Source: Cohnella cholangitidis (GTDB taxonomy: Bacteria > Bacillota > Bacilli > Paenibacillales > Paenibacillaceae). Taken from it: 64,000 nucleotides of DNA. How positions within the stretch are numbered: the stretch's first letter is position 1; the number at the start of each line of letters is the position of its first letter. Shown in pieces: positions 1,393 through 36,811 of the stretch. The position numbers were made by a program, and so were the translations under genes. A model generated the notes under the pieces. The model saw only the letters and a list, made by a program, of their open reading frames with translations, did not search any database and was not told where the DNA came from. The stretch is from NCBI RefSeq assembly GCF_014107495.1, contig NZ_CP041969.1, forward strand, positions 5,629,501-5,693,500. The letters run 5' to 3'.

Positions 1393-1784
1393 GCTCAACT
1401 CTCCTGCCCAATTTAATAGAAATGGGTAAGTACAATCATATAACATTATATTCCAAACATATTGTAAGTTATTGGATTTTATTTCACTTAAAAAAATCGA
1501 CAAAATCATCGTATGTATAAGTACTAATCGGGACTATTAGTCTATTCTTTCTGTGTTTTAATAGGTCAAAATGACTATGTAGAAAACTATGAATCCAGTG
1601 ATACAATACAGATCTCACAAAATTTAGCCGAATTAATTCCTATTATATCTGATTTGTATCATTTTTGTTTGTCGCGAATAGCGGCTCTAAATTGGTATAA
1701 ATAAGAAAAGTAATCGCGACCGCGGATTTTTTTTGCTTATTGTGCAAACGTTTGAACAAAGGAATGAGATCGAGGAGGAATAGA
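1393..1784. promoter_or_regulatory. Divergent intergenic region, sfp / synthetase operon
   Basis: This 392-base AT-rich gap separates the divergent sfp gene and the synthetase operon. It holds a TATAAT on the minus strand (1445-1450), a small palindrome GACTATTAGTC (1532-1542) and the CAAACGTTTG palindrome listed separately. A TACAAT element near 1600 has no good -35 partner, so I do not call a definite promoter for the operon. No gene is visible. Confidence 0.5.
1740..1759. promoter_or_regulatory. LacI/CcpA-like palindromic operator before the NRPS operon
   Basis: TTGTGCAAACGTTTGAACAA is a 20-bp palindrome with one mismatched pair. Its core CAAACGTTTG has the central CG typical of LacI-family operators. 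It sits 25 bases before the GTG start at 1785, where a bound repressor would block the transcript. The same 10-bp core recurs inside the operon at 10367-10382. Confidence 0.5.
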
Positions 1785-6641: not shown

Positions 6642-9600
6642 TGTTAAGCAAACCGTTCATGCCGCCGGAAAGCCGGTTGCAGATTGCCCTGGCTGAGATT
6701 TGGCAAGACGTGCTTCAAGCGGACCGCATCGGAATCGATCATGATTTCTTCGAGTTAGGCGGTCATTCGCTTAAGGCGGCACAGCTCGTGCAAACCGTGC
6801 ATAAAAAGCTTCGGATCGAATTAACTTTGAGCGAGATTTTCAGTTCTCCGACGATTAAAGAGCTGGCGATGCGCTTGGAGAATCGAACGGAAAGCATTCT
6901 CGCTCCGATCGTTCCAACGAAGAGCCGGGATTATTATTCGTTGTCATCCGCGCAAAACCGTCTGTATATTCTGAACAAATTCGAAGGCATCGGAACAACC
7001 TACCATCTTCCGGTCGCATTCGTTGCCGAGGGAACTATCGATCCTATTCGATTCGAACAAGCGGTTCACGCGCTCATCGCCAGACATGAGAGTTTGCGGT
7101 CGACTTTCGATCTCGTTGACGGCGTTCCTATGCAGATGATCCATGAACAGACCGCATTTCGACTCGAATCTTTCGATGGAAATATAGCGAGTATGGAAGA
7201 GACGCTCGAGAAATTCATTCGTCCGTTCGATTTCGACCGCGCTCCTTTAATGCGGGCAGGTCTGAAGGAACGGGCGGATGGAAGGCAATTGATCTTATTC
7301 GATATGCATCATCTAGTATCCGACGGCGTGTCAATGGGCGTTCTCGTTCGGGAATTCGTCGAGCTGTATACGGGAAGAGAGCTTCCCGCATTGCATGTGC
7401 AATACAAAGATTATACGGCTTGGCAAAAGGAGCAATTAACGGCCCCGCCGCTGCTTAAACAACAGCGATACTGGCTGAACGTATTCGCCGACGGCGTGCC
7501 TGCGTTGAATCTTCCCACGGATTTCAAAAGGCCTACCGTCAAATCGTACGAGGGCAACCTTCTGCCATTCAGCTTAACCGCGGAACAAACCCATGCCCTG
7601 AAAAAAATGGCGGGGGATTCGAAAACGACGATGTACATGGTCATGCTGGCGATGTTCAATGTTCTGCTCGCCAAGTATTCCGGCCAAGAGGATATCGTCG
7701 TCGGATCGCCGGTATCGGGAAGATCCCATACGGACGTGAACGGCTTGATCGGAATGTTCGTCAATACGATCCCGTTCAGGAATTATCCATCCGCGGATAA
7801 AACGTTCCAAGAGTTCTTGCAAGAACTGAAGACGAACGCGATTCATGCGTACGACAATCAGGATTATCCGTTCGAAGAGCTGGTCGGCAACTTGCAAGTG
7901 AATCGCGATTTGAGCCGTAATCCCTTGTTCGACGTTATGTTCGTCATGCAGAACATGGATATTCCCGATCTGAAGCTCGACGGGATTAAGTTGGAGCGGG
8001 TAACGATGCCGCATTCGCACGCTAAGTTCGATCTCGCGTTGGAAGTCGTCGAGCAAGCCGACACGCTCTCTTGCCATTTCGAATATTGCACAAGATTATT
8101 TACGGCCGAGACGGTCCAACGTTTCATTTCGCATTTCCAAGCGATCATTTCCAGCGTATTGACGGATCCGCATAAGCGGATCGGCGATATCGAAATGATA
8201 TCGACGCAAGAACGGCACCGGATTTTACGGGAATTCAACGATACCGCATACGATTTTCCGTCGAACGAGACGCTTCATCAGTGGGTGGAAGCCCAAGCGG
8301 AGCTTCGGCCGGAAGGGGTTGCGCTCCTCTATGGGCATACCCGTTTGACGTACGCGGAGTTAAATGCGAAAGCGAACCAATTGGCTCGCGTGTTAAGCAA
8401 GAACGGGGCGGGGCGAGACCGGATTGTCGCGGTTATTGCCGAACGTTCGCCCGAGATGATGATCGCCCTTCTGGCCATATCCAAAGCGGGCGGCGCCTAC
8501 TTGCCGGTCTCTCCCGAAAATCCGGGCGATCGGATCGACTATATGCTCAAGGACAGCGAGGCCGTCATCTTGCTCGCGCAGGAGCGATGGATGGCTGAGC
8601 TTGCGCCACGGATTACTTATTCCGGGATGAAGATCCGTTTAGACGACCCGTCTCATTTTGAAGGCGATGCCTCGAACTTGCCGCAGGAGGCTTCGCCGCG
8701 CGACTTGGCTTATATGATCTACACTTCGGGATCGACCGGAAATCCGAAAGGAGTCATGATCGAACACCGCGCCGTAGCCAATCGAATCCATTGGATGCAG
8801 CGACAATACCCCATCGGCCCGGGTGACGTGATTTTGCAGAAAACGGCGTTTACGTTCGACGTATCCGTCTGGGAACTGTTCTGGTGGAGCTTAGCGGGTG
8901 CAACCGTCTGTTTCTTGGAACCCGGCGGCGAAAAGGATCCCGACAAAATCGTTCAGGCGATCGGGCGTTACAAAGTGACGACAATGCATTTCGTCCCTTC
9001 CATGCTTCATCTCTTCCTTGACTATCTCGAGAGGCGGGCGGACCTCGAAAATTCGGCAGTCTCAAGCTTAGCAAGCTTGAAGCAAGTGTTCGCAAGCGGA
9101 GAGGCTTTGCCGATTCAACAAGCCAATCGATTTTATGAGCTGTTTCGGACTCGCATGGCAACCGCGGCAAAGCTGATTAATTTGTATGGGCCGACCGAAG
9201 CGGCGATCGATGTTACTTATTACGACTGCGTGCCCGATGATCAGGCCGATGCGATTCCGATCGGCAAACCCATTGCCAATATTCAGCTGGTTATCGTGAA
9301 TTCGCACAATGGTTTGCAACCTGCGGGTATTCCCGGCGAGCTATGCATCGCTGGCGTCGGGTTGGCGCGAGGGTATATGAATCGCCCGGAGCTGACGGCG
9401 GAGAAGTTCGTGTCGAATCCATTCGCGCCGGGAACGCTCATGTACCGAACGGGGGATTTGGCGAGATGGCTTCCGGACGGGAACATCGAGTATATGGGCA
9501 GGTTGGACCACCAGGTGAAGCTTCGCGGTTACCGGATCGAGCTTGGAGAGATCGAAGCGGGATTGCTGCGAAACAAAGAGATCGCCGAAGCGGTCGTGCT

Positions 9601-10720
9601 CGTGAAAGACACGCCGCAAGGGGATAAGAAATTATGCGCTTTCTTCGTATCGAGACAAGAGCTGGATGCCGCTGCCGTTAGGCAAAATCTATCGCGCTTG
9701 CTGCCGGATTATATGATTCCTTCCTCGTATACGCGAGTAGATGCCATGCCGTTGACCGCAAGCGGCAAAGCGGACCGCAACGCGTTGGCAAAGCTGGAAC
9801 TGAACTTGCAATCGAATCAAGACTATGTCGCGCCGCAGAACGAAATAGAAGAGAAGCTGGCCGGGATATGGAAGGAGCTTCTGAACGTAGACCGGGTCGG
9901 CATACGCGACCAGTTCTTCGATATCGGAGGCCATTCGTTGCTTCTCCTCCGCATGCATGCGATGTTGGACGGCGAATATCCGGGTAAAGTGAAGGTCACC
10001 GATTTGTTTGCCTACCCTACGATCGAGAAGCTCGCCGAGTTTCTCGCTCCTATCCGCGCGGGATCCGAATCGGAAACGTCGTTGGCGTATATCGAATTGC
10101 CGGGCGAGTTTTTCTCCGGCGGCCAGGAGCTCCAAGAGACAGGGACGGCTTTCAAAATCCAGCTCGACGAAACGGTTTCGAAGGATTTAATCCGAGCGGG
10201 CAACGAGCTGAACGGCGGATTGGAACCGATTCTCTTTGCGCTCTACGCCTATCTTTTCGCCCAAGTGACCAAGAAGTTCGACAATGGGATTAACGTGGGA
10301 GTATCCGATCAGAAAATTTATCCGGTAGAGGTCGATCTTCGGCAAATTGGTCATTTTTCGTCTTTAGCGCAAACGTTTGCGCGTGTAAAAGATGACATAT
10401 TGAAGTCAGGCAACGGTTTCGAATGGAGCGATGTTGCGAAGCAACGGCCTTCTCCGCCGGAGAAGAGGATTTCCGCATTGATATACGACGCTGATCTTTA
10501 CGCGGCTCAAACCCGGGCAACGGAAAGCTTCGATCTGATTGTTTCTTACCGAATCGCAACGAATCAGATCGTACTGTTCTGCGATTACAACGGCAGACGA
10601 TTGCGCAAGGAGAAAGTCATGCAGCTCATTCAAGGATACGCAAAATTAACCCGTTGGTTCGTCAGCCAATATAGCAGCGACCGTAAAGTGTCGGCTGCGC
10701 GGGATGGGGGGACGGTATGA
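6638..10720 (+). CDS. NRPS B: PCP-C-A(Ser)-PCP-half C
   Basis: 1360 residues. It opens directly with a carrier domain (GGHSLKA, Ser44), which must receive the serine activated by NRPS A. Then come a condensation domain (HHLVSDG, His224), an adenylation domain ([11 protein letters not shown] near 695) with pocket code DVWHFSLIDK (serine), and a second carrier (GGHSLLL, Ser1100). The last 200 residues or so resemble only the C-terminal lobe of a condensation domain (FALYAYLFAQVTKKFDNGIN region) with no HHxxxDG, so it should be catalytically dead. It may dock with the downstream KS protein. The start ATG overlaps the upstream stop, and its own TGA overlaps the next ATG; both are 4-base overlaps. 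A 16-bp palindrome with core CAAACGTTTG lies in the coding sequence at 10367-10382. Confidence 0.92.
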   Translation: MMLSKPFMPPESRLQIALAEIWQDVLQADRIGIDHDFFELGGHSLKAAQLVQTVHKKLRIELTLSEIFSSPTIKELAMRLENRTESILAPIVPTKSRDYYSLSSAQNRLYILNKFEGIGTTYHLPVAFVAEGTIDPIRFEQAVHALIARHESLRSTFDLVDGVPMQMIHEQTAFRLESFDGNIASMEETLEKFIRPFDFDRAPLMRAGLKERADGRQLILFDMHHLVSDGVSMGVLVREFVELYTGRELPALHVQYKDYTAWQKEQLTAPPLLKQQRYWLNVFADGVPALNLPTDFKRPTVKSYEGNLLPFSLTAEQTHALKKMAGDSKTTMYMVMLAMFNVLLAKYSGQEDIVVGSPVSGRSHTDVNGLIGMFVNTIPFRNYPSADKTFQEFLQELKTNAIHAYDNQDYPFEELVGNLQVNRDLSRNPLFDVMFVMQNMDIPDLKLDGIKLERVTMPHSHAKFDLALEVVEQADTLSCHFEYCTRLFTAETVQRFISHFQAIISSVLTDPHKRIGDIEMISTQERHRILREFNDTAYDFPSNETLHQWVEAQAELRPEGVALLYGHTRLTYAELNAKANQLARVLSKNGAGRDRIVAVIAERSPEMMIALLAISKAGGAYLPVSPENPGDRIDYMLKDSEAVILLAQERWMAELAPRITYSGMKIRLDDPSHFEGDASNLPQEASPRDLAYMIYTSGSTGNPKGVMIEHRAVANRIHWMQRQYPIGPGDVILQKTAFTFDVSVWELFWWSLAGATVCFLEPGGEKDPDKIVQAIGRYKVTTMHFVPSMLHLFLDYLERRADLENSAVSSLASLKQVFASGEALPIQQANRFYELFRTRMATAAKLINLYGPTEAAIDVTYYDCVPDDQADAIPIGKPIANIQLVIVNSHNGLQPAGIPGELCIAGVGLARGYMNRPELTAEKFVSNPFAPGTLMYRTGDLARWLPDGNIEYMGRLDHQVKLRGYRIELGEIEAGLLRNKEIAEAVVLVKDTPQGDKKLCAFFVSRQELDAAAVRQNLSRLLPDYMIPSSYTRVDAMPLTASGKADRNALAKLELNLQSNQDYVAPQNEIEEKLAGIWKELLNVDRVGIRDQFFDIGGHSLLLLRMHAMLDGEYPGKVKVTDLFAYPTIEKLAEFLAPIRAGSESETSLAYIELPGEFFSGGQELQETGTAFKIQLDETVSKDLIRAGNELNGGLEPILFALYAYLFAQVTKKFDNGINVGVSDQKIYPVEVDLRQIGHFSSLAQTFARVKDDILKSGNGFEWSDVAKQRPSPPEKRISALIYDADLYAAQTRATESFDLIVSYRIATNQIVLFCDYNGRRLRKEKVMQLIQGYAKLTRWFVSQYSSDRKVSAARDGGTV
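10367..10382. repeat. Perfect 16-bp palindrome, LacI/PurR-like core
   Basis: GCGCAAACGTTTGCGC is a perfect palindrome inside the end of the NRPS B gene. Its core CAAACGTTTG is the same ten bases found in the palindrome before the operon (1740-1759). It could be an internal operator or roadblock site, or a coincidence of coding. Confidence 0.35.
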
Positions 10721-11934
10721 TCGGTAAAGTCGCGTTGATCTTTCCGGGAACGGGCTCTCAGTACGTCGGCATGTTTAAGTCTTTCTATGAACGGTATGCG
10801 ATCGTAAGAGAGACTTTCGGCGAAGCGGAAGACGCGCTCAAGCTGGATTTGGCGACGATGTGTTTCGAGACCGGCTTCCGGGAGCAGACGAGTATCGCTT
10901 ATGCGCAGACCGCGATATTCGTCTGCAGCGTGGCGGCCTGCCGAGTGTTCATGCACGAAGTAGGCGTAAAGCCAAGCTTGATGGCAGGCCATAGTTTAGG
11001 AGAGTTATCGGCTTTAACTTGCGCGGGCGTCTTCCGATTGCAAGACGCGGTTAAAGCCGTATGGTTTAGAGGCGAAGCGATGGAAGACGCGGTCCCCGAA
11101 GCCGGGGGCGCCATTGCGGCAATCAAACATCTGTCGGCGGAGCGGGTGAAAGAGCAATGCGAGCGCATGGACCCGGTAGGGGGTACGGTCTCGATTGCTT
11201 GTTACAATTCATCCGATCAAGTCGTGATAGCCGGCTATAGCGAAGCTGTCGGCACGGTGTCGGACGCGCTGAGAGAGCTTGGCGGGCAAGCGATCGCGAT
11301 CCATTCCAACGTCCCGTTTCACACGGCCCTCATGGCTCCGGCCGCGGATCGTTTGAGAGAGAAGCTTATGCAGGTCCAGATGCGCGATCCAACCAGTCCC
11401 GTCATTTCGAACGTGACCGCGTTGCCCTACGAACAGGGGGCGGCGAACGTAGTCGAACTGCTGTCGCGACAGCTGACGCATCCGGTTCGTTGGGAAGAAA
11501 CGGTTCGATACATGCAGCAAGAAGGAATTTCGTACGCGGTGGAGCTAGGGCCGAATACGATTCTCAAGAAGCTGAACCGAACGACGGCGCGCAATATTCG
11601 GGCTTATTCCTGGGATGAGGCTGACGACTTCCAACGAATCGTTGAATTGAAGCAGCTGAGGCCCGCATTTATCGACGTTTGTTTATCGATCGCAGTCTCT
11701 ACGCGAAATCATAATGACAATCCGGATCAGTACGAGAACGGGGTTGTCGAACCATACAAGACGATATTACGAATCCGGCAAGAGTGCGAGCGCATCGGTC
11801 AATCGCCGACGTCCATGCAAATGAAGGACGTCTTCGAAAGTCTTCGTTCGATCCTGCTGACGAAAAAAGTAGAACAAGCGGAACGGGAGCAGTTGTTGCA
11901 ACAAGCGGAGCTAGAAATGATCGGCATCCTATAG
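10717..11934 (+). CDS. Free-standing malonyl-CoA:ACP acyltransferase (trans-AT)
   Basis: A FabD-like acyltransferase of 405 residues. It has the GTGSQ start block, the nucleophile motif GHSLGE (Ser93), the arginine of WFRGEAM (Arg118) that holds the free carboxylate of malonyl groups, and the catalytic His202 in VPFHT. It should supply a malonyl unit in trans to the KS-ACP module of the 13604-23830 protein, which has lost its own AT. About 95 residues follow the AT fold and may serve for docking; free ATs of the iturin/mycosubtilin type are of similar length. The start overlaps the upstream stop as ATGA. The housekeeping FabD is an alternative identity but unlikely given its position inside the operon. 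Confidence 0.92.
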   Translation: MIGKVALIFPGTGSQYVGMFKSFYERYAIVRETFGEAEDALKLDLATMCFETGFREQTSIAYAQTAIFVCSVAACRVFMHEVGVKPSLMAGHSLGELSALTCAGVFRLQDAVKAVWFRGEAMEDAVPEAGGAIAAIKHLSAERVKEQCERMDPVGGTVSIACYNSSDQVVIAGYSEAVGTVSDALRELGGQAIAIHSNVPFHTALMAPAADRLREKLMQVQMRDPTSPVISNVTALPYEQGAANVVELLSRQLTHPVRWEETVRYMQQEGISYAVELGPNTILKKLNRTTARNIRAYSWDEADDFQRIVELKQLRPAFIDVCLSIAVSTRNHNDNPDQYENGVVEPYKTILRIRQECERIGQSPTSMQMKDVFESLRSILLTKKVEQAEREQLLQQAELEMIGIL

Positions 11935-11973
11935 TCCTATCGCAAGCGATTATTATTCGAGAGGGAGAAGACG

Positions 11974-13592
11974 ATGAAAAAATATTTGTTAATGGCCGGG
12001 GAAGTCGCGTTGCTGCTGGGTACCTTTTTGGGGGTATCCATCGTTCACAACAATATTCTCGTACCGAATTCGGGTGCTTACGGACAATTCGTAGGGAAAA
12101 ATCTGCTATCTGGATCACCATGATGTTTTTGATAACGTCGGTTCTCTACGTGATTTATTTCCAAGTAAAGAAACGAATCGCGAAACAAAATTACGAGAGC
12201 ATTGTCCAATTAAGCAATTTTTCGAAAATGAACAAAATCGACGTGACGATTTCCGCCTTAATCGGTTTGTTCTTGGGCGTCTTCTTTATTTGTTTCATGA
12301 AGCTGTCGTTTATTATCGACGGGTTCCCCGACTTCGAGAACTATGTCGCCATGTTTATGAATTCGGAATCTTTCATCGTCACGATCATCGGATTGTCGAT
12401 CATCGGTCCCTTATTCGAGGAAGTATTATTCCGGGGGTTGCTGTTCAACATCATGCGCAAAAGCTTGCCTTTCGTTGCGGCGCTGCTGCTGCAAGCCGTC
12501 TTTTACGGATATGCCCAACCGAATCCAAGCATACAAGTGATGGCGTTTTTCCTGGCGCTCGTCTACGGGATTCTCTATTACCGCTTAAAGTCGATCTGGT
12601 CCTCGTTGATAGGGGCCGCAGTGATGAACACCGTCATCTTCGTAACAAGGGAGTACGGCGTACAAGAGTCGATCGAGACGATTCCGGATCATATTCTGAT
12701 GTTTGTTTCCGGATTCTGTCTTTTCTTTATGATCTCGTTGCTGGTGTCCGTATGGAAAGGCGACACGAAAGCGGCCGTCTTGAAAATGACCGGAAACTTG
12801 TTGTTATGGACGTTCGTATACGCGGCTTTCTACTACCCTTTCATCTTCATCGTATGGAATCAATATATTATGGGCATCGATTCGATATCGACTTGGCTCG
12901 GGCAAAATAACGTCATCGGATTCGTTCCTTACGATATTCTTGCGTTCGTCATTTATTTCTACGTCATGAAATGGGTGAATAAGAAAAATCTGATCAAAGC
13001 GAGCAATTTCACGCGCATGTCCGTCAAGAACGGGGTTCTGATTTCCATATTGGGAATCGCGATGGGCGTATGGGTTCAATGCTTCTTCGAAATTCCTTAT
13101 TTCAGAGACAATTATCCTCAATTCGAGCAATTGACCGTCTATTTGACGACTACGATCGTGCCTGTTTATTTATTGTTTTTGATCATCCATTCCATTTATA
13201 AAGAAATTTATTTCCGCGCGCTCATTTTTAACGTTCTAAGATCGGCGATGCCCGTCTGGGTTTCGGTTCTGGGGACGGGGATCATCTACGGCGGCTTGTT
13301 CTTCAACTGGGACGTTCCGCTGACGATTTACGCGTCGCTCGGAGCCCTTATATTCAGTCTCATGTTCGAATGGTATAAGTCGATCTGGGCGCCGATCATT
13401 AACGAGTTTTTCGTCTTTGCGGCGTATTACGTGCTAAGGAAATTGAATCTCTCTTACGGACCGGGCGTAGTGTGGGCTCTTGGCATCAGTTCCGTCGTCG
13501 TCATCGGCTTGATGTTCTATCTTTGGAAAAATCGGGAGACGAAACGCGCGCGGAACTCCGCTAACGAAAAGGCCGGCACCATGGTTGCTTAG
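11974..13592 (+). CDS. CPBP/Abi-type double membrane protein, reading frame shifted
   Basis: A polytopic membrane protein with two repeated CAAX-protease/bacteriocin-immunity (CPBP) halves. The first carries FEEVLFRGLLFN, the second KEIYFRALIFN. The later conserved histidine is not seen in either half (QAVFYGYAQ and IIYGGLFFN), so peptidase activity is doubtful. GAGGGAG before the ATG at 11974 starts a hydrophobic frame (MKKYLLMAGEVALLLG) that stops after 49 codons at 12123. The rest continues in another frame, open from an ATG at 12120. Six instead of five A in the run near 12098 would join them as one protein of about 539 residues. As written the two frames overlap by ATGA, so two coupled proteins are also possible. 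Its place in the operon suggests immunity or membrane processing. Confidence 0.75.
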
Positions 13593-13603: not shown

Positions 13604-16600
13604 ATGCTGGATTTTAACTTGATCGAATTTAACGATACGGATGCAGATCAACTAGAGGAAATAGAAGAGTTGTCATCGCAGGAAATCGCCGTCATCGGAA
13701 TTTCGGCAAAGCTGCCTCTGGTCGATAACCTCGATCAATTCTGGAAGTTCGTACGCAGCGGAGTGGATTTCATTTCGGAATTTCCCAAGTCCAGGCGCCA
13801 AGATACGGATATCTACGCCCGGGGCAGAACCCGGGAAGGGGAGCAGCCTGCCTATTTCGACGGAGCTTATTTGGAAGACATCGATTGTTTCGATCATGCT
13901 TTTTTCCGTCTATCGCCGAAGGAAGCAAGCTTGATGAGTCCTAATCAAAGGTTGTTTCTCGAAACGGCGTGGAAAGCGATCGAGGATGCCGGTTATAGCA
14001 AGCTTCAGATGGCTGGAAGCCAGACCGGAGTTTATGTCGGATTCAACACGGATACGCTCTACGACTACAAAAGAATGATAGCCGAGACGGACCCGGACTC
14101 CCTTTCGCTTGCGGTACCGGGAAACCTGACGTCGGTCATTGCCGGCAGACTCTCGTATTTGCTCGACTTGAAAGGCCCCAGCATGTGCGTGGATACGGCA
14201 TGCTCCTCTTCACTAGTGGCGGTACATCTCGCTTGCCAGGCGATCCGCAATCAAGAATGCGAGATGGCGATCGCGGGCAGCGTCAAAATGAATTTATTGC
14301 CGTTAGAAAATGAGGTCAAAATCGGGATCGAAGCTTCCGATTGGCGAGCCCATACCTTCGACGATAGTTCCGATGGTACGGGAGCAGGCGAAGGCGTCAT
14401 TGCGTTTGTGCTGAAGCCTCTGCATAGAGCGCTCCAAGACGGGGATTTCATTCATGGCGTCATTAAAGGCAGCGCGGTCAATCAAGACGGCAGCTCGGTA
14501 GGCATGACAGCTCCTAACGTGAAATCCCAGGAGGAAGTGATCGTCCGGGCATGGCAGAACGCGGGCATAGATCCCGAGACGATCTCTTATATCGAGGCCC
14601 ACGGAACGGGAACGAAACTGGGCGATCCGATCGAGATCGACGGCCTCCATCGCGCGTTCCGCAGATTTACGGATCGCAGGCAGTTCGTCGCTATCGGATC
14701 CGTCAAAGCGAACTTCGGCCATCTGGACCATGCCGCCGGTATGGCCGGCATGCTGAAGGCCATTATGGCGATGCGGAATCGGGAAATTCCGCCTTTGCCG
14801 CATTTCGCGAAGCCGAACCGGGCGATCGATTTTATTCAATCTCCTCTGTACGTCAATGACAGACTAACGGAATGGGAGACGAACTCCTATCCGCGCAGAT
14901 GCGGGGTCAGCGCATTCGGCATGAGCGGCACGAATTGCCATGTCGTGCTGGAAGAAGCTCCGAAGAAGGAGGACAAAATGGACTCGGGAGAGGGGATGCA
15001 AGAAGAGCATCTTTTAACTTTGTCTGCCAAGAGCGAGGCTGCGCTTGGAAGGTTAGTTCAACAATACGCCCGATTAAGCTTGGAGCAAATTTCTCTTGCC
15101 GATCTTTGCTATACGGCCAATACGGGCAGAGGGCATTATGAATATCGTTTGGCGGTCGTTTTCCATAATGCCGGCGAACTGTCGGAACAGCTCGCAAGGC
15201 TTATCGACGGCGGCTTAACCGACAATCGATCCCAAGGCATCTATTATGGCAATCCGAAATCCATTTCCGAAGGAATTGCGGGGACTGGCGCATGGAATGC
15301 CCAGCGCCACGTAACCGATGTCCGTACGGACCCCCGAAGGGACATCGCTCGTTCGTATACGGAAGGAGCGGACGTCGAATGGAGCAAGCTTTACGCAGGA
15401 CAGCGGCGTTATCGCATCCCGTTGCCGACGTATCCTTTTGAAAAAAGCCGTTGCTGGCTGGATGCTCCTAATCCTGCGCGGTTCGGAACGGAGTACGACG
15501 CGCGGATCGAGCGGAACTCCTCGCCGGACAGGGAAATCGTAATAACCGGAAAACCGAACGGCAGCTATTCCGACATTGAGACCGTAATCGCTCAGGCATG
15601 GGGGCATACTCTCGGGCTTCGTCAGGTGGATTTGGCCGATAACTACTACGAGTTGGGCGGAGACTCGATTATGGCGATGAAAATCGTCAACCGAATCAGT
15701 CTGCAATTGTCAGTCCGCTTGGAAGTGGCGGATTTGCTCAAACATGCTACCATAGGCGATCTGGCTTCCTTCATCGAGCGGTTGCCGATCGATGATCCGC
15801 AATCGGCCAGCGGGATCGCTGCTTTGACCAAGATAGACGCCAGGGAGCAATATCCGTTGACGTCCTCTCAGTACCGCGTTTTTATACAAGAGCAATTCGC
15901 GGCCGCCGGAACCGGCAATAATACGCCGTTCGGTATCAAGGTAACCGGAGAACTGGACGCAAGTCGGTTGGAATCCTGTTTCCGGCAATTGATCCAAAGG
16001 CATGAATCGCTAAGATCTTCCTTTGCATTCGTTAACGGGGAAGCCGTAACGCGCGTCGATCTAGATCCGGAGTTTCAGGTGCAGCATTTTCGCAGTTCCG
16101 AGGAACGGCTGGACCAAGTCGTTCGGGAATTTATACGCCCTTTCGATCTGGAGAAGTCGCCGTTGCTGCGCGTCGGACTCGTGGAAATATCAACTCGTCA
16201 GCATCTGATCTTAATCGATCTGCATCATATCGTTTCCGACGGCGTATCGACGAGCATTCTGATCAAAGAATTTTGCGAGCTCTACAAAGGCGCCGCTTTG
16301 CCGGAATTGCCGCTGCAGTATACGGACTATTCCGTTTGGCAGCGGGAGATGTTGGAGAGCGACGGCTATCGGCAACAAAAGCAATTTTGGCTCATCCAAT
16401 TGTCGGGCGAGCTTCCTTTGCTGAATATGCCGGTGGATTATGCCAGAGGGGATCGCAAAGCGTTTAACGGAAATACGCTTCATGCATCGATATCCGCCGA
16501 GTTGAAATCGAAGCTGGAGCGTCTGGCCCAACAACGCAACATGACCTTGAATTCGTTATTGTTCTCCGTCTATGCATGGATGCTAAGTCAACGCTCCGGC

Positions 16601-19600
16601 CAGAACGATCTCGTCGTCGGCACGCTTGTCGCGGGGAGAAACCAACCTCACTTGGATAAGATTATCGGAATGTTCATTAACTTTTTGCCGATACGCGTCG
16701 GGGTGCAGCCGGAGCTCTCTTTCGCAGATTTCGCCTCCGAAGTTCATCGTTCGATCGTAGAGGCTTACGCGCACGATTATCCTTTCGATCAGATGATCAA
16801 CGATTTGCAAGTCAAGACGGAGCGGTCGCGTAACCCGTTGTACGATACGATGTTCGTTTACCACAACGAGTTCAGCATGAATCCGACCGATCGATTGAAC
16901 ATGGACGAAGTGGGTTTGCTCTTCGAACAGTATCCGTTGCTGAATCCCGCGTCGCCGCTGGATTTCAAACTGGACGTATGGAACGGACTCTCGGAAAGCT
17001 TAACGCTAGTTCTCCAATACGATACTTCATTGTTCAAGGAAAGTACGATGCAGCAAGGGCTGAACCATTTCGTGAAGTTGGCGGAGCTCGTTGCGGAGAA
17101 CCCGGATCAGCTTCTCTCCAGCATCGTTTTATTCGATGCGTCCGAAGCTGCCTCAAAGGCCGATTCACGGTTGAAGGAACCTTTGCCGGTAGCGGTAAGC
17201 GCGACTTTCACCGCCGAGCCGATCGCCGCTTCCGTGGAATGGTGGTGCCGGCAATTCCATCAAGAAGTCGGGATCGAATTCGCCGCTTATCATCAAGTTT
17301 TTCAGCAGCTGCTTGACCCCAACAGCTTGATTTCCGTTAACGACGGAATCAATCTGTTGCTGATCCGGTTCGAAGATTGGATTCGGGACGACGATTCTGT
17401 CGCAATGGATGGGATAACCAGTAAGCTTGAGCGCATATATAGCGATCTGATGACGGCTCTTCGCAATCGCAGCAAGTTGGGAACTTATTTGATCGGAACG
17501 TTTCCGGTTTCCGCTCGTTTGACGCATTCCGGCGAAATATCCGCTTACTTGGAAAGCTTGAATGAGCGCTGGATGAACGACCTGGCCGGTCTCGGAAACG
17601 TGCACGTTATCGACCTGGGACAATCGTTGGCGGCGCTCTATCAGGTTCCCGAAATTTTCGATCCGGTCAAGGACCAAGAGGGGCATATGCCTTTCACCGA
17701 TGAATTTTATGGCGCGATGGGTACTGCCGTTGCCCGTACGATCGTTAGCAGGAACGCGCATCCTTTCAAAGTTGTCGTCTTGGATTGCGACAACACATTA
17801 TGGCGAGGCGTTTGCGGGGAAGACGGACCGTTAGGCATCTCGATCGACGAACCTTTTTTGGCTTTGCAGCGGTTTATGCTGGACCGATACAACGAGGGCA
17901 TGTTGCTGGCGATTTGCAGTAAAAACAATGAACCGGACGTATGGGAAGTATTCGATCGCAATCCGAACATGCTGCTTAAGAAGGAGCATTTCGTAGGAGC
18001 CAAGATCAATTGGTCAGCCAAAGCCGACAATATCCGCACGTTATCTGAAGAGCTGAACCTAGGTTTGGATAGCTTTATTTTCGTGGACGACAATGCCAAG
18101 GAATGCGGAGAGATGATAGCGCGTTGTCCCGAAGTGCTGACGTTGCAAATTCCGAAGCTGGCATGGCAAATTCCTTATTATTTGAAGCATGTATGGGCAT
18201 TCGATAAATTCGTCGTCACCGAGGAAGACCGGCAACGGTCGGCGTATTACGCGGCCGAGTCCCAACGGCGCAGCATGCAGGACCATGCTGCGGCTTCCAT
18301 CGACGAGTTTCTCGGAAGCTTGGACCTTAAGTTGAAGATGCGTCTCTTAACCGAGGAACAGATTGGCCGCGCCGCGCAATTGACGCAGCGAACGAACCAA
18401 TTCAATCTCAGTACGATCCGCAGAACGGACGAGGACGTTCGGAGGTTGATCTCGGACCCGAACATGATGTGTTGGGGGATCGAGGTGGCGGATCGCTTCG
18501 GAGATTACGGATTCGTAGGTCTCGTCTTCGGCTTTGCGGAAAGAAACGCGCTCGTGCTGGATACGTTCTTGTTAAGCTGCCGGGTGCTCGGAAGACGCGT
18601 GGAGCAAGCGATATTAAGCGAATTGAAACGAGTTGCCGTCGCCGCGGAAGCGCATTGCATTGAAGCGCCGTTCGTCGCCACGGCCAAAAATGATCCTTTC
18701 AAGCTGTTTCTTGAACAAACCGGGTGGGAGCACTCGGAAAATCAGCCTGACGAAGAACGTTACGTCCTGCCGCTGGAACGTATTCCCGATGAGGTTGCGT
18801 GGATAACGGCTTGGGAAGACAACCCGGAATTAAACCTTCCGGAGCGTCAGGTTGCAGCCGGTTATTCAAGGGCGTCGAATTTGGCTTCCCAGCCGGAAGC
18901 GCGGCAAGAGCAACCAATGCTTTGGGATGTACTTGGCTATGAGGACGTCGAACTGACTCATCGCAACCAACTTTTGCCCTTGCAATTCCATAGAGCGGAA
19001 CAATTAATGAAGCTGACGATACGTACTCGAGAAGAACAGCAGCGAATGGGCAAAGAGTATGACGAGCCAAGCAATGAGACGGAGATGGAATTGACCTCCA
19101 TCTGGGAAGAGATTCTCGGCATGGAACCGATCGGCGTTCAGGATCATTTCTTCGATATCGGCGGCAATTCCTTGCAAGCCGTGTCGCTGGCATCCCGCAT
19201 CCACCAACGTTTCCAAGTCGAAATTTCCTTGCGCGACTTGTTTGCCATACCTACGATCCGCCAATTGGCGAGCCTGATCAATCGGAAGGAACAATCGGAG
19301 CATAGCTCCATCGAACCTGCGATAGAACAAGTCGCATATCCGGTTACATCGGCCCAGAAGAGACTGCTCGTGCTTCAACAACTGGATGTGCCGAATTTGG
19401 CCTACAATCAGCCGGTTTTATTTACGGTTGACGGCGATTTGGACGTGGGACGCTTTCGTTACGCATGCGAGCAGTTGGTTCGCAGACATCGCATTTTGAC
19501 GACGGCTTTCAGATGGGAGCAAGGCGAATTCGTAGGTTGGTTAGATGAATGCACGGATTTCGCGGTTGATTATGACGAGTTAGCGGGGAAGAGCTTGACA

Positions 19601-22600
19601 GAAGCGATCGCCGAATTCATTCGACCGTTCGATTTGACGAAAGCGCCTCTGTTCCGCGCCGGATTAATCCGAACGGATGAGCGAAAGCATGTCCTGCTAT
19701 TCGACATGCATCATATCGTAGCGGACGGCGTTTCCATCAGCCTGCTCATGAAGGACTTCTTCGATCTGTATCAAGGGACGCTTTTGCCGGCGCCGCGAAT
19801 CCAATATCGCGATTATGCCTTTTGGCAAGGAGGATTCTATTCCGAACCCTCTATGCGGCAGCATGAATCTTATTGGTTAAAGGTATTCCCGGACGAGATA
19901 CCCGTATTGAATTTGCCGGTTGATTCCCCGCGTCCGGTCGTACGCAGCTACGCCGGTCGACGCTTCGGCTTCGAGCTTGCTTCCGACTTGCGGGAAGCGG
20001 TCAAGAAGCTTGCGTTCGGAATGGGTGCCACGCCGTATATGGTTTATTTGGCCGCGTTCAATATCCTCTTAGCCAAAACCTCGGGACAAGACGACATCGT
20101 GGTCGGTTCGCCCGTTGCCGGCAGGCCTCACGCCGATCTTCAAACGATGGTCGGCATGTTCGTTCAAACGCTGGCGCTACGGAACAAGCCCGTCGGTACG
20201 AGAACGTTCCGGCAGTTCGTCGCGGAAGTGAAAGATAACGCGCTGGAAGCTTTCGAACATCAAGATTATCCGTTCGAGTCGTTGGTAGAGAAATTAAACG
20301 TCCCGCGCGATCTCAGCCGAAATCCGCTGTTCGATACGATGTTCGTCTATCAGAATATGGACTGGACGAATCAACAAGCGGCGGGGCTGCGGTTTCAACC
20401 TTATCTTTACGATACCGAACAGAGCCGCTTCGATCTGACGCTGGAGTTGGCGGAAATCGGTGATGGCATGCGGGTTCATTTCGAATTCGCGACGGATTTG
20501 TTTTTGCCGAAGACGATCGAACGGCTTTCCCGCCATTTTATACAAATTCTAAAAGAAGTCACCACTGCTCCGGACATTCCGTTGTCCCGGATCGATATGC
20601 TTGAAAAAGCCGAGAAGTCGCAGATTTTATTCGGGTTTAACGCGACTTACTCCGATTATGCGGGAGATAAGACGGTTCATCGGCTATTCGAGGAGCGGGT
20701 TCGCCAAACCCCGGATCAGGCGGCGCTTGTTTGCGAAGACAAACATCTAACTTACCGGGAGTTGAATGAAAAGGCGAATCGGTTAGCCCGAGCGTTAAGG
20801 GACGAAGGGGTACAGCCGGATCAATTGGTCGGCATGTTGGTCGAGCGGTCGTTCGAAATGCTCATCGGCATTCTCGCGATTTTAAAAGCAGGGGGCGCTT
20901 ACGTTCCGATAGATCCCGAATATCCGCCGGAACGCATGAGCTACATTTTGGAAGACTCCGGAGCGAAGCTATTGTTGCTCCAAGGGCGATTGAAAGGAAG
21001 GCTGCCCGAGGAAGGCTTTTGCGGGAAATTGATCGAATTGGACGACCCGCGAACATACGATCGGGACGGGGCGACGGTCGAGGCCGTTGCGGCGCCGTCT
21101 CACTTGGCTTACGTCATCTATACTTCGGGTTCCACGGGTAAACCGAAAGGCGTCATGATCGAGCATCGATCCGCCGTTCACATTCTTAGTCAACTGGAAC
21201 GCAAATATCCGATGCTCCCGGGCGATCGGTATTTGCTGAAAACAACCTACGCGTTCGATGTATCCGTTGCCGAACTGTTCGGTTGGTTTGCAGGGAACGG
21301 AACGTTGGTTATTTTACCGCCGGGACACGAGAAAGATCCGACATTGTTGCTGCATGCGATCGAACGCCAGCGTATCACCCACGTCAACTTCGTTCCTTCG
21401 ATGTTTCATGCCTTGTTGAATTCATTCTCGGAATCGCAATTGGCCGGCGCTCGGAATTTGAAATATGTTTTCGTGGCCGGCGAAGCGTTATCCAAGAAGT
21501 TAGTAGACCAATATCACAGTCTGCAATTGCCGGCTAAGCTGGAAAATATTTATGGACCGACGGAAGTGACGATCTATGCAACCCAATATCCGACAGTGCT
21601 AGGCGCTACGGCTTTGTCGAACGTCCCGATCGGCAAACCGCTGGGTAATGTTCAAGCTTGGATCGTGAACGGCGACTTCCAGCTTCAGCCGATCGGCGTA
21701 CCCGGCGAATTGTGCGTATCGGGAGAGGGATTGGCGCGGGGCTACTTAAACCGGCCGGACTTAACGGAACAAAAGTTCGTCGACAACCCGTTCGTTCCCG
21801 GGGACCGAATGTACAGAACGGGGGATTTCGTTCGCTGGCTGCCGGACGGAAATATCGAATATTTGGGACGGATCGACCATCAGGTCAAAATTCGCGGCTA
21901 TCGGATCGAGCTTGGAGAGGTGGAATCCCAACTGCGGCAGACTGCGTTAGTCGAAGAAGCGGTGGTGGTCGCTTTAACGGACGGGACGGGGCAAAAGGTT
22001 TTATGCGCTTATTTCGTTGCCGGGGAGCCGTTGTCCGCCGCCGAACTGAGAGGGGCGCTCGCTAAGGAGCTGCCTGGTTATATGATTCCTTCCCGCTTTA
22101 TGCAACTGGAGAGCATGCCGCTGAACGCCAACGGGAAAATCAATCTCAAAGCGCTGCCCGAGCCCGTGTTCGAGCTTGATCAAACCTACGAAGCGCCGAG
22201 TAACTCGCTTGAATCCGAGCTGGCGCAAATTTGGTCGGATGTGCTCGGGATAGAGACGATCGGCGTGCAGGAGCGTTTCTTTGAAATAGGAGGCCATTCC
22301 TTGAACGCGATCGCGATGCGGACCCGAATCCAGCAATCGTTCCAAATCGAGCTTTCCTTAACGGACATTTTTCAATCTCCTACGATAAAACAGCTCGCCC
22401 AGGCGATCGAGCAAGCTTCTCCGGCCGTTTACGCCGGCATTCCGCTGGCGGAACAGCGGCGCGATTATCCTTTGTCTTCGGGACAGTTGAATCTGTTCGT
22501 CCTTCATCAACTCGAAGGAGGAGCAACCGCCTATAACCTTCCCGGCCTCTTCAGGGTGGAGGGAGCCATAGATCGGCATAGGGCGGAAGAAGCATTCCGG

Positions 22601-23830
22601 AAGTTGATTCGCAGACAGGAGTCGCTCCGCACGTCCTTTGCGGTTGACAATGGCCGGTTCGTGCAGATTATCCATTCGGAAGCGGAGTTTGAGATCGAGT
22701 ATCGGGAGGAGTACGAGGATACCTTCGAGTCCGTCTGCCGTTCCCTGATCGCGCCGTTCGATTTAAGCCGTCCGCCGCTCGTGCGAGTTGCCTTGATCAA
22801 ATTGATCGATAGGCGCTTGATCGCACGGGAAGCTTCCGCGACAGAAGAAGATCAACGCCACGTGTTGTTCTTCGATATGCATCATATCGTTTCTGACGGA
22901 GTCTCCTTAGCCGTAATGATGCGCGATTTCGTGCAGCTGTACGATGGCAGGGAACTCCCCGAGCTGCGCATTCAATATAAAGATTACGCGGTATGGCAAC
23001 AGCAACAGATGGAGAGCGATGCGTACGCGCGGCATGCGGCTTATTGGCATAACGCGTTCGGCGGCCCGCTGCCGGAGCTTAGGCTGCCGACGGACTTCCC
23101 GCGTCCTGCCGTTCAAAGCTTCCAAGGCAATCGGGTCCATCTTTCTCTCGACGAGGATTTGACGGAGAAGCTGAAGGCGATCGCCGCCGACAACGGCGCA
23201 ACGTTAAATATGGTTTTATTTGCTGCTTATTCCATACTGCTCTCCAAGATTAGCGGACAAGAGGACCTGGTCATCGGAATTCCATCAGCGGGCAGAACGG
23301 ACCACGATTTGCAGCCTTTGATCGGGATGTTCGTCCAAATGCTGGCTTTGCGGTGCAAACCGACTAACGGCCTTACTTTCGATCGTTTGTTGCAGGATGT
23401 CAAACAACTGACGTTGTCTGCCTTCGAACATCAGCATTATCCGCTCGAAGAGCTGATCAAGGGATTGAACCTTCCTCGCGATATTAGTCGGAATCCGTTA
23501 TTCGACGTTTCGTTCGTTATGCAAAATTACGAGAAAACGGAGTTCAAAGCCGATCGGCTTAGCGCTTCGCCTCTTGCTTTCGTTCCCGATTCGGCTAAGT
23601 TCGACCTCACTTTGGAGGCGGTCGAGTCGGACGGCCGTCTGGATTTGTCGTTGGAATACGCGGTCAAGCTGTTTCGGATGAAGACGGCCGAAAGATGGCT
23701 AGACGACTTCGCGCGCGTTCTGCAAGTCGTCGTATCCGATTCGAAAATCGAATTGCGCAACGTGACATTGGACAGCGGCTCGTTCCGTAACCAACCTTTA
23801 ATGCTCGAGGACGTGGATTTCAACTTTTAA
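13604..23830 (+). CDS. PKS-NRPS C: KS-ACP-C-FkbH-PCP-C-A(X)-PCP-C
   Basis: 3408 residues with AGGAGG before the ATG. The ketosynthase has Cys200 (DTACSSS), His333 (EAHGTGT) and His373 (NFGHLDHAAG). The AT is missing: a KS-AT linker of about 190 residues runs straight to the post-AT segment PLPTYPFEKSRCW, then the ACP (GGDSIMAM, Ser688). A condensation domain (HHIVSDG, His874) is followed by a FkbH/HAD-IIIC block at about 1190-1740: an N-terminal part reading FQQLLDPNSL, then LDCDNTLWRG (Asp1394, Asp1396), CSKNNE and FVDDNAKE. A PCP follows (GGNSLQAV, Ser1856), so the FkbH block sits where an A domain belongs and should load a glyceryl unit from glycolytic bisphosphoglycerate. Then come C (HHIVADG, His2036), A ([11 protein letters not shown] near 2506, pocket DVANFAIIYK, no residue assigned), PCP (Ser2899) and C (HHIVSDG, His3093). 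There is no KR, so a beta-keto group is expected. Confidence 0.92.
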   Translation: MLDFNLIEFNDTDADQLEEIEELSSQEIAVIGISAKLPLVDNLDQFWKFVRSGVDFISEFPKSRRQDTDIYARGRTREGEQPAYFDGAYLEDIDCFDHAFFRLSPKEASLMSPNQRLFLETAWKAIEDAGYSKLQMAGSQTGVYVGFNTDTLYDYKRMIAETDPDSLSLAVPGNLTSVIAGRLSYLLDLKGPSMCVDTACSSSLVAVHLACQAIRNQECEMAIAGSVKMNLLPLENEVKIGIEASDWRAHTFDDSSDGTGAGEGVIAFVLKPLHRALQDGDFIHGVIKGSAVNQDGSSVGMTAPNVKSQEEVIVRAWQNAGIDPETISYIEAHGTGTKLGDPIEIDGLHRAFRRFTDRRQFVAIGSVKANFGHLDHAAGMAGMLKAIMAMRNREIPPLPHFAKPNRAIDFIQSPLYVNDRLTEWETNSYPRRCGVSAFGMSGTNCHVVLEEAPKKEDKMDSGEGMQEEHLLTLSAKSEAALGRLVQQYARLSLEQISLADLCYTANTGRGHYEYRLAVVFHNAGELSEQLARLIDGGLTDNRSQGIYYGNPKSISEGIAGTGAWNAQRHVTDVRTDPRRDIARSYTEGADVEWSKLYAGQRRYRIPLPTYPFEKSRCWLDAPNPARFGTEYDARIERNSSPDREIVITGKPNGSYSDIETVIAQAWGHTLGLRQVDLADNYYELGGDSIMAMKIVNRISLQLSVRLEVADLLKHATIGDLASFIERLPIDDPQSASGIAALTKIDAREQYPLTSSQYRVFIQEQFAAAGTGNNTPFGIKVTGELDASRLESCFRQLIQRHESLRSSFAFVNGEAVTRVDLDPEFQVQHFRSSEERLDQVVREFIRPFDLEKSPLLRVGLVEISTRQHLILIDLHHIVSDGVSTSILIKEFCELYKGAALPELPLQYTDYSVWQREMLESDGYRQQKQFWLIQLSGELPLLNMPVDYARGDRKAFNGNTLHASISAELKSKLERLAQQRNMTLNSLLFSVYAWMLSQRSGQNDLVVGTLVAGRNQPHLDKIIGMFINFLPIRVGVQPELSFADFASEVHRSIVEAYAHDYPFDQMINDLQVKTERSRNPLYDTMFVYHNEFSMNPTDRLNMDEVGLLFEQYPLLNPASPLDFKLDVWNGLSESLTLVLQYDTSLFKESTMQQGLNHFVKLAELVAENPDQLLSSIVLFDASEAASKADSRLKEPLPVAVSATFTAEPIAASVEWWCRQFHQEVGIEFAAYHQVFQQLLDPNSLISVNDGINLLLIRFEDWIRDDDSVAMDGITSKLERIYSDLMTALRNRSKLGTYLIGTFPVSARLTHSGEISAYLESLNERWMNDLAGLGNVHVIDLGQSLAALYQVPEIFDPVKDQEGHMPFTDEFYGAMGTAVARTIVSRNAHPFKVVVLDCDNTLWRGVCGEDGPLGISIDEPFLALQRFMLDRYNEGMLLAICSKNNEPDVWEVFDRNPNMLLKKEHFVGAKINWSAKADNIRTLSEELNLGLDSFIFVDDNAKECGEMIARCPEVLTLQIPKLAWQIPYYLKHVWAFDKFVVTEEDRQRSAYYAAESQRRSMQDHAAASIDEFLGSLDLKLKMRLLTEEQIGRAAQLTQRTNQFNLSTIRRTDEDVRRLISDPNMMCWGIEVADRFGDYGFVGLVFGFAERNALVLDTFLLSCRVLGRRVEQAILSELKRVAVAAEAHCIEAPFVATAKNDPFKLFLEQTGWEHSENQPDEERYVLPLERIPDEVAWITAWEDNPELNLPERQVAAGYSRASNLASQPEARQEQPMLWDVLGYEDVELTHRNQLLPLQFHRAEQLMKLTIRTREEQQRMGKEYDEPSNETEMELTSIWEEILGMEPIGVQDHFFDIGGNSLQAVSLASRIHQRFQVEISLRDLFAIPTIRQLASLINRKEQSEHSSIEPAIEQVAYPVTSAQKRLLVLQQLDVPNLAYNQPVLFTVDGDLDVGRFRYACEQLVRRHRILTTAFRWEQGEFVGWLDECTDFAVDYDELAGKSLTEAIAEFIRPFDLTKAPLFRAGLIRTDERKHVLLFDMHHIVADGVSISLLMKDFFDLYQGTLLPAPRIQYRDYAFWQGGFYSEPSMRQHESYWLKVFPDEIPVLNLPVDSPRPVVRSYAGRRFGFELASDLREAVKKLAFGMGATPYMVYLAAFNILLAKTSGQDDIVVGSPVAGRPHADLQTMVGMFVQTLALRNKPVGTRTFRQFVAEVKDNALEAFEHQDYPFESLVEKLNVPRDLSRNPLFDTMFVYQNMDWTNQQAAGLRFQPYLYDTEQSRFDLTLELAEIGDGMRVHFEFATDLFLPKTIERLSRHFIQILKEVTTAPDIPLSRIDMLEKAEKSQILFGFNATYSDYAGDKTVHRLFEERVRQTPDQAALVCEDKHLTYRELNEKANRLARALRDEGVQPDQLVGMLVERSFEMLIGILAILKAGGAYVPIDPEYPPERMSYILEDSGAKLLLLQGRLKGRLPEEGFCGKLIELDDPRTYDRDGATVEAVAAPSHLAYVIYTSGSTGKPKGVMIEHRSAVHILSQLERKYPMLPGDRYLLKTTYAFDVSVAELFGWFAGNGTLVILPPGHEKDPTLLLHAIERQRITHVNFVPSMFHALLNSFSESQLAGARNLKYVFVAGEALSKKLVDQYHSLQLPAKLENIYGPTEVTIYATQYPTVLGATALSNVPIGKPLGNVQAWIVNGDFQLQPIGVPGELCVSGEGLARGYLNRPDLTEQKFVDNPFVPGDRMYRTGDFVRWLPDGNIEYLGRIDHQVKIRGYRIELGEVESQLRQTALVEEAVVVALTDGTGQKVLCAYFVAGEPLSAAELRGALAKELPGYMIPSRFMQLESMPLNANGKINLKALPEPVFELDQTYEAPSNSLESELAQIWSDVLGIETIGVQERFFEIGGHSLNAIAMRTRIQQSFQIELSLTDIFQSPTIKQLAQAIEQASPAVYAGIPLAEQRRDYPLSSGQLNLFVLHQLEGGATAYNLPGLFRVEGAIDRHRAEEAFRKLIRRQESLRTSFAVDNGRFVQIIHSEAEFEIEYREEYEDTFESVCRSLIAPFDLSRPPLVRVALIKLIDRRLIAREASATEEDQRHVLFFDMHHIVSDGVSLAVMMRDFVQLYDGRELPELRIQYKDYAVWQQQQMESDAYARHAAYWHNAFGGPLPELRLPTDFPRPAVQSFQGNRVHLSLDEDLTEKLKAIAADNGATLNMVLFAAYSILLSKISGQEDLVIGIPSAGRTDHDLQPLIGMFVQMLALRCKPTNGLTFDRLLQDVKQLTLSAFEHQHYPLEELIKGLNLPRDISRNPLFDVSFVMQNYEKTEFKADRLSASPLAFVPDSAKFDLTLEAVESDGRLDLSLEYAVKLFRMKTAERWLDDFARVLQVVVSDSKIELRNVTLDSGSFRNQPLMLEDVDFNF

Positions 23831-32800: not shown

Positions 32801-33874
32801 ATGTATGAAAAAATGAAACATCAATTCGGTTACTCGCTTGCAAGGGGTTTCCTCCCGGTTTTCGACGGTCTGGCTTTGCCGACAATAGAATTCGGGAGAT
32901 CGGAACAGGGCGTTAATCGCAAGAAGTACTGCAAACTTCCTTCCGTTCCGTTTATAGGGCTTATCAAGATGATGGAGAAGACGGGCATTTCCTTTGATTT
33001 TATAGCTTACCCTTCGTTGGAGGAAGGTATTGCGGCGATCGACCGGAGCTTAAGCAACAATGAAATCGTGGCGATCGGCGGCGTAACTTATTACTTGAAT
33101 TATTCGCCGGATTACAAGCTGCCCGAGGAGGAATGCCGAGAAAGATTGAAAAAACCGGCTGCTAACGTTCCTTTCGATCATTCGTTGCTGGTCATCGACC
33201 GAACGGAGTCGGGGTACATCGTCTACGATACAAGTTACCAATTTTTCGGGGAAATCCCCAGCGAAGATTTGCATCAATCCTTTTCCGGTTATCGCGATCT
33301 GTCTTTCATGGATACGATTCCGCGATTGACGGATTACTCTTACCGGGTGTTCCAGACTAACAAACGGGCGCCGGGGCCGGATGAGCTTGAAGATCGGCAA
33401 TGGGAACTGACTATGTTTATCGAGTTGATCAAAAATTGGTTAACTTTGCAAGAAAGGGATTACGAAGCGGAAGGAACTGTCTATTCTCAATTTGCAGGAA
33501 TGGGCGCCATTAACGAAATGATGAACATTTTGAGAGACGAACGATTTTTGACGGACGTTCAGGCAGATCGAACGTTCCTGTCCGCGGTTCTAATCGACTG
33601 GAAATACAACTTTGTTTTCTTAAGGGACGTATTGGATGATTTGTCTAAGTCATTCGCCGAATTTAAGGGATCGTCAAGACGAATCGACGAGATCATCTCG
33701 TCCTTTGGAGAAGCCTATAACGACAGCTTAACCCTTAACGCGGATAATGGAATACCCTTCGCAAGACGTCTAGAAAGCACGTTGGAAGGGATTCATTCCC
33801 AACTTAGCTTGCACTTGCCTCAATGGAGTGAGTTAGCCTCCAAATATAGAAATGAACATTCTCCGCGCAATTAA
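23846..33874 (+). CDS. NRPS D: half C-A(Thr)-PCP-C-A(Cys-like)-PCP-C-A(Gly)-PCP-BtrH-like release domain
   Basis: 3342 residues; the GTG start follows GGGGAGGA. Residues 1-240 are only the C-terminal lobe of a condensation domain, without HHxxxDG. A1 (near 405) has pocket DFWNIGMVHK, the threonine code, then PCP (GGDSIK, Ser799). The next C domain is of a distinct type ([11 protein letters not shown], His1010), like those linked to dehydration of Ser/Thr. A2 (near 1482) reads DLYDFSLVWK and has the LSGDWIP block of cysteine-type A domains, but Asp replaces Asn at one pocket position. PCP (Ser1880), C (HHIVTDG, His2060), A3 (near 2527, DILQLGLVWK, glycine) and PCP (Ser2915) follow. No thioesterase follows. 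Instead about 380 residues resemble BtrH_N plus DUF4872: Cys2981 (YYPCLIAV), His3112 ([10 protein letters not shown]) and Asp3128 ([11 protein letters not shown]) could form a papain-like triad. Confidence 0.9.
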
Positions 33875-36774: not shown

Positions 36775-36811
36775 GCGTTCATACAATCAAGCGGAAACGG
36801 AGGAAAAGAAC

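Follow-up and report, generated by a model that had tools for sequence, protein, structure and literature searches.

The window analysed here is a stretch of 64,000 nucleotides from the genome of Cohnella cholangitidis (contig NZ_CP041969.1, positions 5,629,501 to 5,693,500 of the forward strand). It carries a biosynthetic gene cluster that includes p5 (13604..23830), a 3408-aa hybrid of polyketide synthase (PKS) and nonribosomal peptide synthetase (NRPS). All features located below lie on the + strand unless stated otherwise. Pfam, NCBIfam and local profiles give p5 the order KS-ACP-C-NEX-FkbH-PCP-C-A-PCP-C (KS, ketosynthase; ACP, acyl carrier protein; C, condensation; PCP, peptidyl carrier protein; A, adenylation), the Pfam matches being one KS, three PP-binding, three condensation and one A domain. 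In the position where an A domain would be expected, flanked by an intact C domain and a PCP, p5 has the FkbH block, whose catalytic residues are present. The original prediction had proposed the order ACP-C-FkbH-PCP-C, with HHIVSDG in the first C domain and FkbH replacing the A domain of a chain-internal module. Domain searches and local profiles confirm both points at the positions given below, although the earlier list of domains was incomplete and lacked the KS and the A-PCP-C tail.

The KS (13679..14998; residues 26-515 of p5 by Pfam and local profiles) carries the motifs CSSS, HGTGT and GHxxxAAG. It is followed by the ACP (15578..15778, ends approximate, local profiles), with YYELGGDS at residue 681, and by the C domain upstream of FkbH (15836..17149, ends approximate, Pfam and alignment). 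The HHIVSDG motif of the latter spans residues 874-880, and the domain bears a set of residues, F1027, H1087, E1089, K1122 and D1124, hereafter called the signature. The N-terminal extension of the FkbH block (17189..17767, local profile and alignment) is called NEX, a name found in PMC12304814. The PCP expected to be the glyceryl carrier (19091..19279, Pfam PP-binding and local profiles) shows FFDIGGNS at residue 1849, and the serine motifs are intact in the carriers on both sides of C-FkbH. The second C domain (19328..20629; Pfam, tree and alignment) is of the ordinary type and is expected to form the bond between the carboxyl of glycerate and the amino acid that follows. An A domain (20627..22153, Pfam) with the extracted code DVANFAIIYK stands behind it.

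The FkbH phosphatase and glyceryl-transfer region (17768..18733) is identified by TIGR01686 in NCBIfam (residues 1389-1710, E 4.3e-87, 292.3 bits for a curated cut-off of 146.65) and contains both LDCDNTLWRG and FVDDNAKE, so that the earlier assignment to FkbH holds. The catalytic aspartates on which that assignment also leaned are retained on realignment: D1394 (at 17783), D1396, T1398, S1439, K1473, D1495 and C1659 (at 18578) are each kept in 29 of 29 aligned FkbH domains, that of the window included. We take D1394 and D1396 to be the Asp pair of the haloacid dehalogenase (HAD) fold, acting with the Ser, the Lys and an acidic residue, and C1659 to be the transfer Cys; the roles given here to the catalytic residues of the C domain are likewise our assumption.

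The chain delivered to the C domain should not be a plain peptidyl chain, since p5 starts with a KS that had been overlooked. The KS-ACP gap measures 188 residues and its only Pfam matches are KS-linker models; no ketoreductase (KR) was found by Pfam in this module or in the other cluster proteins scanned. Because a KS module is present and no KR was found, the chain handed over is expected to be a beta-ketoacyl lipopeptide, and its transfer should give a beta-keto ester of glycerate for further extension. That the product is a lipopeptide, as proposed earlier, is likely, since the assembly line begins with a domain resembling fatty acyl-AMP ligases (FAAL-like).

The genome has FkbH at three places: in the window, in a frame of 597 aa and in another large synthetase of 3400 aa (49-59 kb), which is 41% identical to p5 over 3404 aligned positions and lies beside its own FAAL-like, acyltransferase (AT), CAAX and thioesterase genes. 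FkbH-like matches occur in 11 of 37 genomes of the genus (this one included) and in 119 of 394 of the family, the family count also taking in free-standing FkbH proteins. The close relatives of p5 are found in Cohnella and Paenibacillus. A scan of contigs for C-FkbH loci gave at least 588 stretches matching the pattern, and the best 80 of at least 542 relatives were kept. In these 80 loci the C domain stands directly before FkbH in 28, FkbH is first in its frame in 46, and 6 are arranged otherwise. The 28 loci span many phyla, so C-FkbH is neither rare nor limited to the lineage of the window. They are fed by a KS module (10, two with AT), an A module (8) or a FAAL (1), the C domain being first or cut in the other 9.

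The stretches around the better genome matches and the 80 kept loci together contain 23 distinct KS-PCP-C-FkbH units, all from the family of the window or from Cohnella/Paenibacillus loci, and one of them is the second copy in this genome. The KS-PCP gap is 170-260 residues in all 23, too short for a KR. The serine motif of the ACP is present in 23 of 23 and that sought in the PCP after FkbH in 22, while the third KS motif was recovered in 20. A split version is seen at L213 (G092, 3374-10200), where KS-PCP-C, an AT and a separate 706-aa NEX-FkbH protein lie side by side.

The C domain upstream of FkbH is intact; it also belongs to a distinct type, as trees and residues indicate. A total of 233 distinct C domains was collected, each covering at least 88% of the profile. 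The first tree (134 rows) included 49 C domains preceding FkbH and 85 others, from the two clusters of this genome and from 75 random domains leading into an A domain or ending their frame. On it the label "before FkbH" requires 6 changes, compared with an average of 39.7 after shuffling, and none of 500 shuffles came out so low. A second tree was restricted to C domains with an aminoacyl or glyceryl carrier as donor, in order to remove the donor as a confounder; there 12 of 137 rows precede FkbH and 2 changes are required compared with 11.7 after shuffling, again with none of 500 shuffles so low. The two trees were built by a quick method and raised warnings on long branches and odd letter composition. 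In the 134-row tree, the C domain of the window that precedes FkbH groups with its KS-fed kin. Four of the six other C domains of the window fall into an ordinary group of 37 rows (marked 97* in the tree), whereas the FAAL-fed one of p1 is placed elsewhere, beside one C domain preceding FkbH, and the first full one of p6 in a third group. The vioprolide-like L146 and L207 stay outside the group of the window in this quick tree, L207 on a very long branch.

Phe at position 1027 is found in 38 of the 49 C domains before FkbH compared with 2 of 177 before an A domain or ending the frame. Its frequency by donor is 21/23 (KS), 10/11 (A), 1/1 (FkbH), 0/2 (FAAL) and 6/12 (unclear). K1122 is shared by 37 of the 49 and 12 of the 177; it is not FkbH-specific, since 10 of these 12 are FAAL-fed C domains before A. 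The signature therefore sets most C domains before FkbH apart largely whatever their donor, but not the vioprolide-like, FAAL-fed ones, which lack it.

The following mechanism is proposed. The FAAL-like domain and two A modules would build a fatty acyl dipeptide (presumably Ser-Ser by the A codes), to which the KS, served by a trans-AT, would add malonate without reduction to give a beta-ketoacyl-ACP. FkbH, together with NEX, would take 1,3-bisphosphoglycerate, strip its phosphate and load the glyceryl unit on the following PCP. The special C domain would then transfer the beta-ketoacyl chain to a hydroxyl of glyceryl-PCP, giving a beta-keto ester, and the next C domain would couple the carboxyl of glycerate with an amino acid before the line continues through p6. 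We consider this mechanism as a whole likely; the FkbH module of p5 is real and probably works in this way. It builds on the domains, the intact catalytic residues, the lack of a KR in the scanned proteins, the conservation across genomes and the C type linked to FkbH; the loaded unit, the ester, the choice of hydroxyl and the product are what we infer from them.

The beta-keto ester could instead be transient. Its active methylene would attack the glyceryl thioester or a derived aldehyde to form an acyl tetronate or a butenolide, leaving the modules downstream to process a minor share of the ester or some different chain. Two minimal members of the family agree with this, as they end at FkbH-PCP plus a tail, which is a thioester reductase in one (PF07993, 8.9e-49) and a weak BtrH_N match in the other (PF14399, 1.4e-5, 25.7 bits, below the cut-off of 29.7). 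According to PMC12304814, BurF of the malleicyprol pathway converts an ester reductively into a butenolide. However, the window and 21 of the 23 units go on with PCP-C, which favours elongation, and no reductase occurs among the cluster proteins scanned. We consider a transient ester unlikely in p5. The minimal system with the reductase, at G297:C39:81064-91963 (+, loci L075/L076), comprises FAAL-like-PCP, an AT and KS-ACP-C-NEX-FkbH-PCP-thioester reductase, and its C domain has Leu instead of Phe at the signature position. Following malleicyprol logic, it seems equipped to form a hydroxymethyl acyl-butenolide.

Elongation after ester formation is retained for p5, and a wider reading can be attempted. 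The C domains before FkbH in the group of the window would form a distinct glycerate-accepting class with polyketide, peptide or glyceryl donors, marked by Phe for Thr in the "NFLPIR" stretch, by HxE or HxH and by KxD. The KS-ACP-C-FkbH-PCP core would make beta-ketoacyl glycerate esters with several fates: reductive cleavage to butenolides, release by BtrH-like domains, or extension into lipodepsipeptides. The tandem C-FkbH-PCP modules of one genome would join two glycerates by an ester. Taken jointly, these proposals are tentative, and we would sooner doubt than assert them. The tandem modules are in a 6716-aa synthetase (G310:C3:530997-551144, -, loci L063/L064) with two consecutive C-NEX-FkbH-PCP modules, each of which retains the conserved residues of FkbH and carries the signature in its C domain; they could link two glycerates.

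Several points weigh against the proposed role of the C domain. The signature is absent from three FAAL-PCP-C-FkbH proteins whose layout resembles that of vioprolide and corramycin, although they keep HHxxxD (the aligned L146 and L207, and L206, which is below the coverage limit, by eye), and several C domains before FkbH with unclear donors also lack it (L098, L107, L112, L166 and others). Of the 49 C domains that lead into FkbH, only 41 read exactly HHxxxDG. Three related proteins of the type KS-AT-PCP-C-NEX-FkbH-PCP (G258, L100, L102) read HNIVSDG, with Asn for one His, and keep the signature, so the catalytic His can be missing from a C domain in this position. It may also be that related C domains and FkbH just move together as a cassette, in which case the signature need not mark the acceptor. 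Finally, the case rests on sequence and the product is a prediction.

The three HN proteins would also suit a structural C domain without catalysis, the glyceryl unit being a side branch or skipped. HHIVSDG is intact in the window, however, and HHxxxDG is present in all 23 KS-PCP-C-FkbH units, which makes a purely structural role very unlikely. No product of this cluster is known to us, as might be expected if the C-FkbH block were decayed or unused, but nothing in the sequence supports decay: the full catalytic set is there and long open frames are found in many genomes. This explanation appears highly improbable. Lastly, a role of FkbH in supplying the KS with a hydroxymalonyl- or methoxymalonyl-type extender, the route of FK520-type pathways that FkbH proteins in general presumably serve, is scarcely credible, as cassettes of that type have a free-standing FkbH and ACP with two dehydrogenases, while FkbH is fused between C and PCP in p5 and no acyl or hydroxyacyl dehydrogenase occurs among the scanned proteins of 1740-36429.

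The proposed ester formation can be compared with known systems. Glyceric-acid starter modules with FkbH and PCP fused to an NRPS are known for cyanobacterial peptides; such a fusion is seen in Planktothrix rubescens (L130), but there FkbH comes first with no C domain before it, unlike in the window. In VioA module 2 (C-FkbH-T) from the vioprolide pathway, the C domain esterifies FkbH-loaded glycerate with a fatty acid (PMC8949500). Like this type, p5 has a C domain directly before FkbH, a PCP after it and an intact HHxxxDG. However, the vioprolide donor is a fatty acyl from FAAL at the chain start, whereas the direct donor in p5 is KS-ACP and not FAAL-ACP, and should carry a beta-ketoacyl lipopeptide. 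The vioprolide-like proteins found here also lack the C signature that the window has. Cystomanamide module 4 (C-fkbH-PCP) lies in the middle of a lipopeptide, and glyceric acid is described for one of four congeners, cystomanamide B (PMC9581180). Here FkbH replaces A within the line and, as in p5, C-FkbH-PCP is followed by the C domain of a further module, but the donor module is described as C-A-PCP-E rather than KS. Corramycin ComK module 2 (FAAL-ACP-C-HAD-T), for which glycerate is proposed (PMC10099666), differs from the window by its place at the chain start, a proposed C-methylation of glycerate and the lack of a KS donor. In BurF, a PKS-NRPS C domain forms an ester from a polyketide donor and a bound hydroxy acid, a reaction that is abolished by a His-to-Ala exchange (PMC12304814). 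BurF shares NEX with the window but is described there without the FkbH phosphatase and transfer parts, and it ends in a reductase. No terminal reductase follows the putative ester-forming C domain of p5, which goes on with PCP-C-A-PCP-C; a reductase was seen only in the relative at G297:C39.

The vioprolide and cystomanamide producers were not recognised among the best 80 of at least 542 relatives, nor in 377 genomes drawn from the phylum to which the Polyangium locus belongs (62 with a match). The only FAAL-PCP-C-FkbH proteins recovered in the sequence search for these systems were L206, L207 and L146.

The novelty implied by the original prediction for a mid-chain glycerate in a lipopeptide is not supported, as such a case is in print. 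With vioprolide, cystomanamide and corramycin as precedents, the glycerate module is established chemistry, and by analogy the reaction proposed for p5 is possible. A literature search, with most subscription journals outside its reach, found no paper on the KS-fed C-FkbH family. What is new is the predicted beta-keto donor, the family of 23 units with its second copy in this genome and two minimal members, and the residue signature of the C domain. With its two hydroxyls and one carboxyl, glycerate taken straight from glycolysis can give a peptide chain both an ester open to hydrolysis and a point of branching. If the signature marks glycerate acceptance, sequence would suffice to recognise ester-forming C domains of this kind, and the module could be transferred from one assembly line to another. 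Acyl tetronates and butenolides have a natural precursor in a beta-keto ester, which would tie the family to malleicyprol logic.

Upstream of p5, NRPS p1 (1740..6641) is composed of FAAL-like AMP-binding - PCP - C - A (code DVWHFSLVDK) and would serve lipid loading and the first residue (two AMP-binding, one PCP and one C match in Pfam, order by local profiles). The FAAL label of its first domain is our assumption, made by eye, the Pfam match being AMP-binding. NRPS p2 (6638..10720; Pfam, local profiles) comprises PCP - C - A - PCP (code DVWHFSLIDK) and about 220 aa without a Pfam match (last 222 aa, 10052-10717). It is followed by a discrete acyltransferase (10717..11934, Pfam Acyl_transf_1), the trans-AT for the KS module, and by a CAAX/Rce1-like membrane protein (11784..13592, Pfam) found at the same place in many related clusters, whose gene start is probably over-extended into the AT gene.

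Downstream, NRPS p6 (23846..33874; Pfam, local profiles) consists of a C fragment - A - PCP - C - A - PCP - C - A - PCP and a 397-aa tail, with the A codes DFWNIGMVHK, DLYDFSLVWK and DILQLGLVWK. The codes of p1 and p2 are both presumed to mean Ser, and those of p6 Thr, near Cys, and Gly. The fragment (23846-24560) is only the C-terminal part of a C domain and stands right behind the full one that ends p5. It recurs in relatives, as does the end segment of p2 (local profiles), and both may be docking parts. The p6 tail after the last PCP (32681-33871) matches no Pfam family even at E 1, and a BtrH-like label given to it by eye was withdrawn on that account. A profile built from it has matches in the terminal parts of several related synthetases, and the tail may release the chain. 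A free-standing thioesterase (33889..34653, Pfam) and ABC transporter genes for an ATPase and a permease (34650..36429; Pfam), conserved beside the clusters of the nearest relatives, follow.

Just past the cluster, a threonyl-tRNA synthetase gene (36692-38724) is broken into two overlapping frames. It was considered as a self-resistance gene; a search of the 26 other merged segments gave no such gene, though several stop close to the cluster. The genome has two threonyl-tRNA synthetase genes, both in pieces, which hints at sequencing indels. On the other side, a divergent gene (706-1509, - strand) has by eye the look of an Sfp-type phosphopantetheinyl transferase and shares 61% identity over 234 aa with a gene that neighbours the cluster of the nearest relative.

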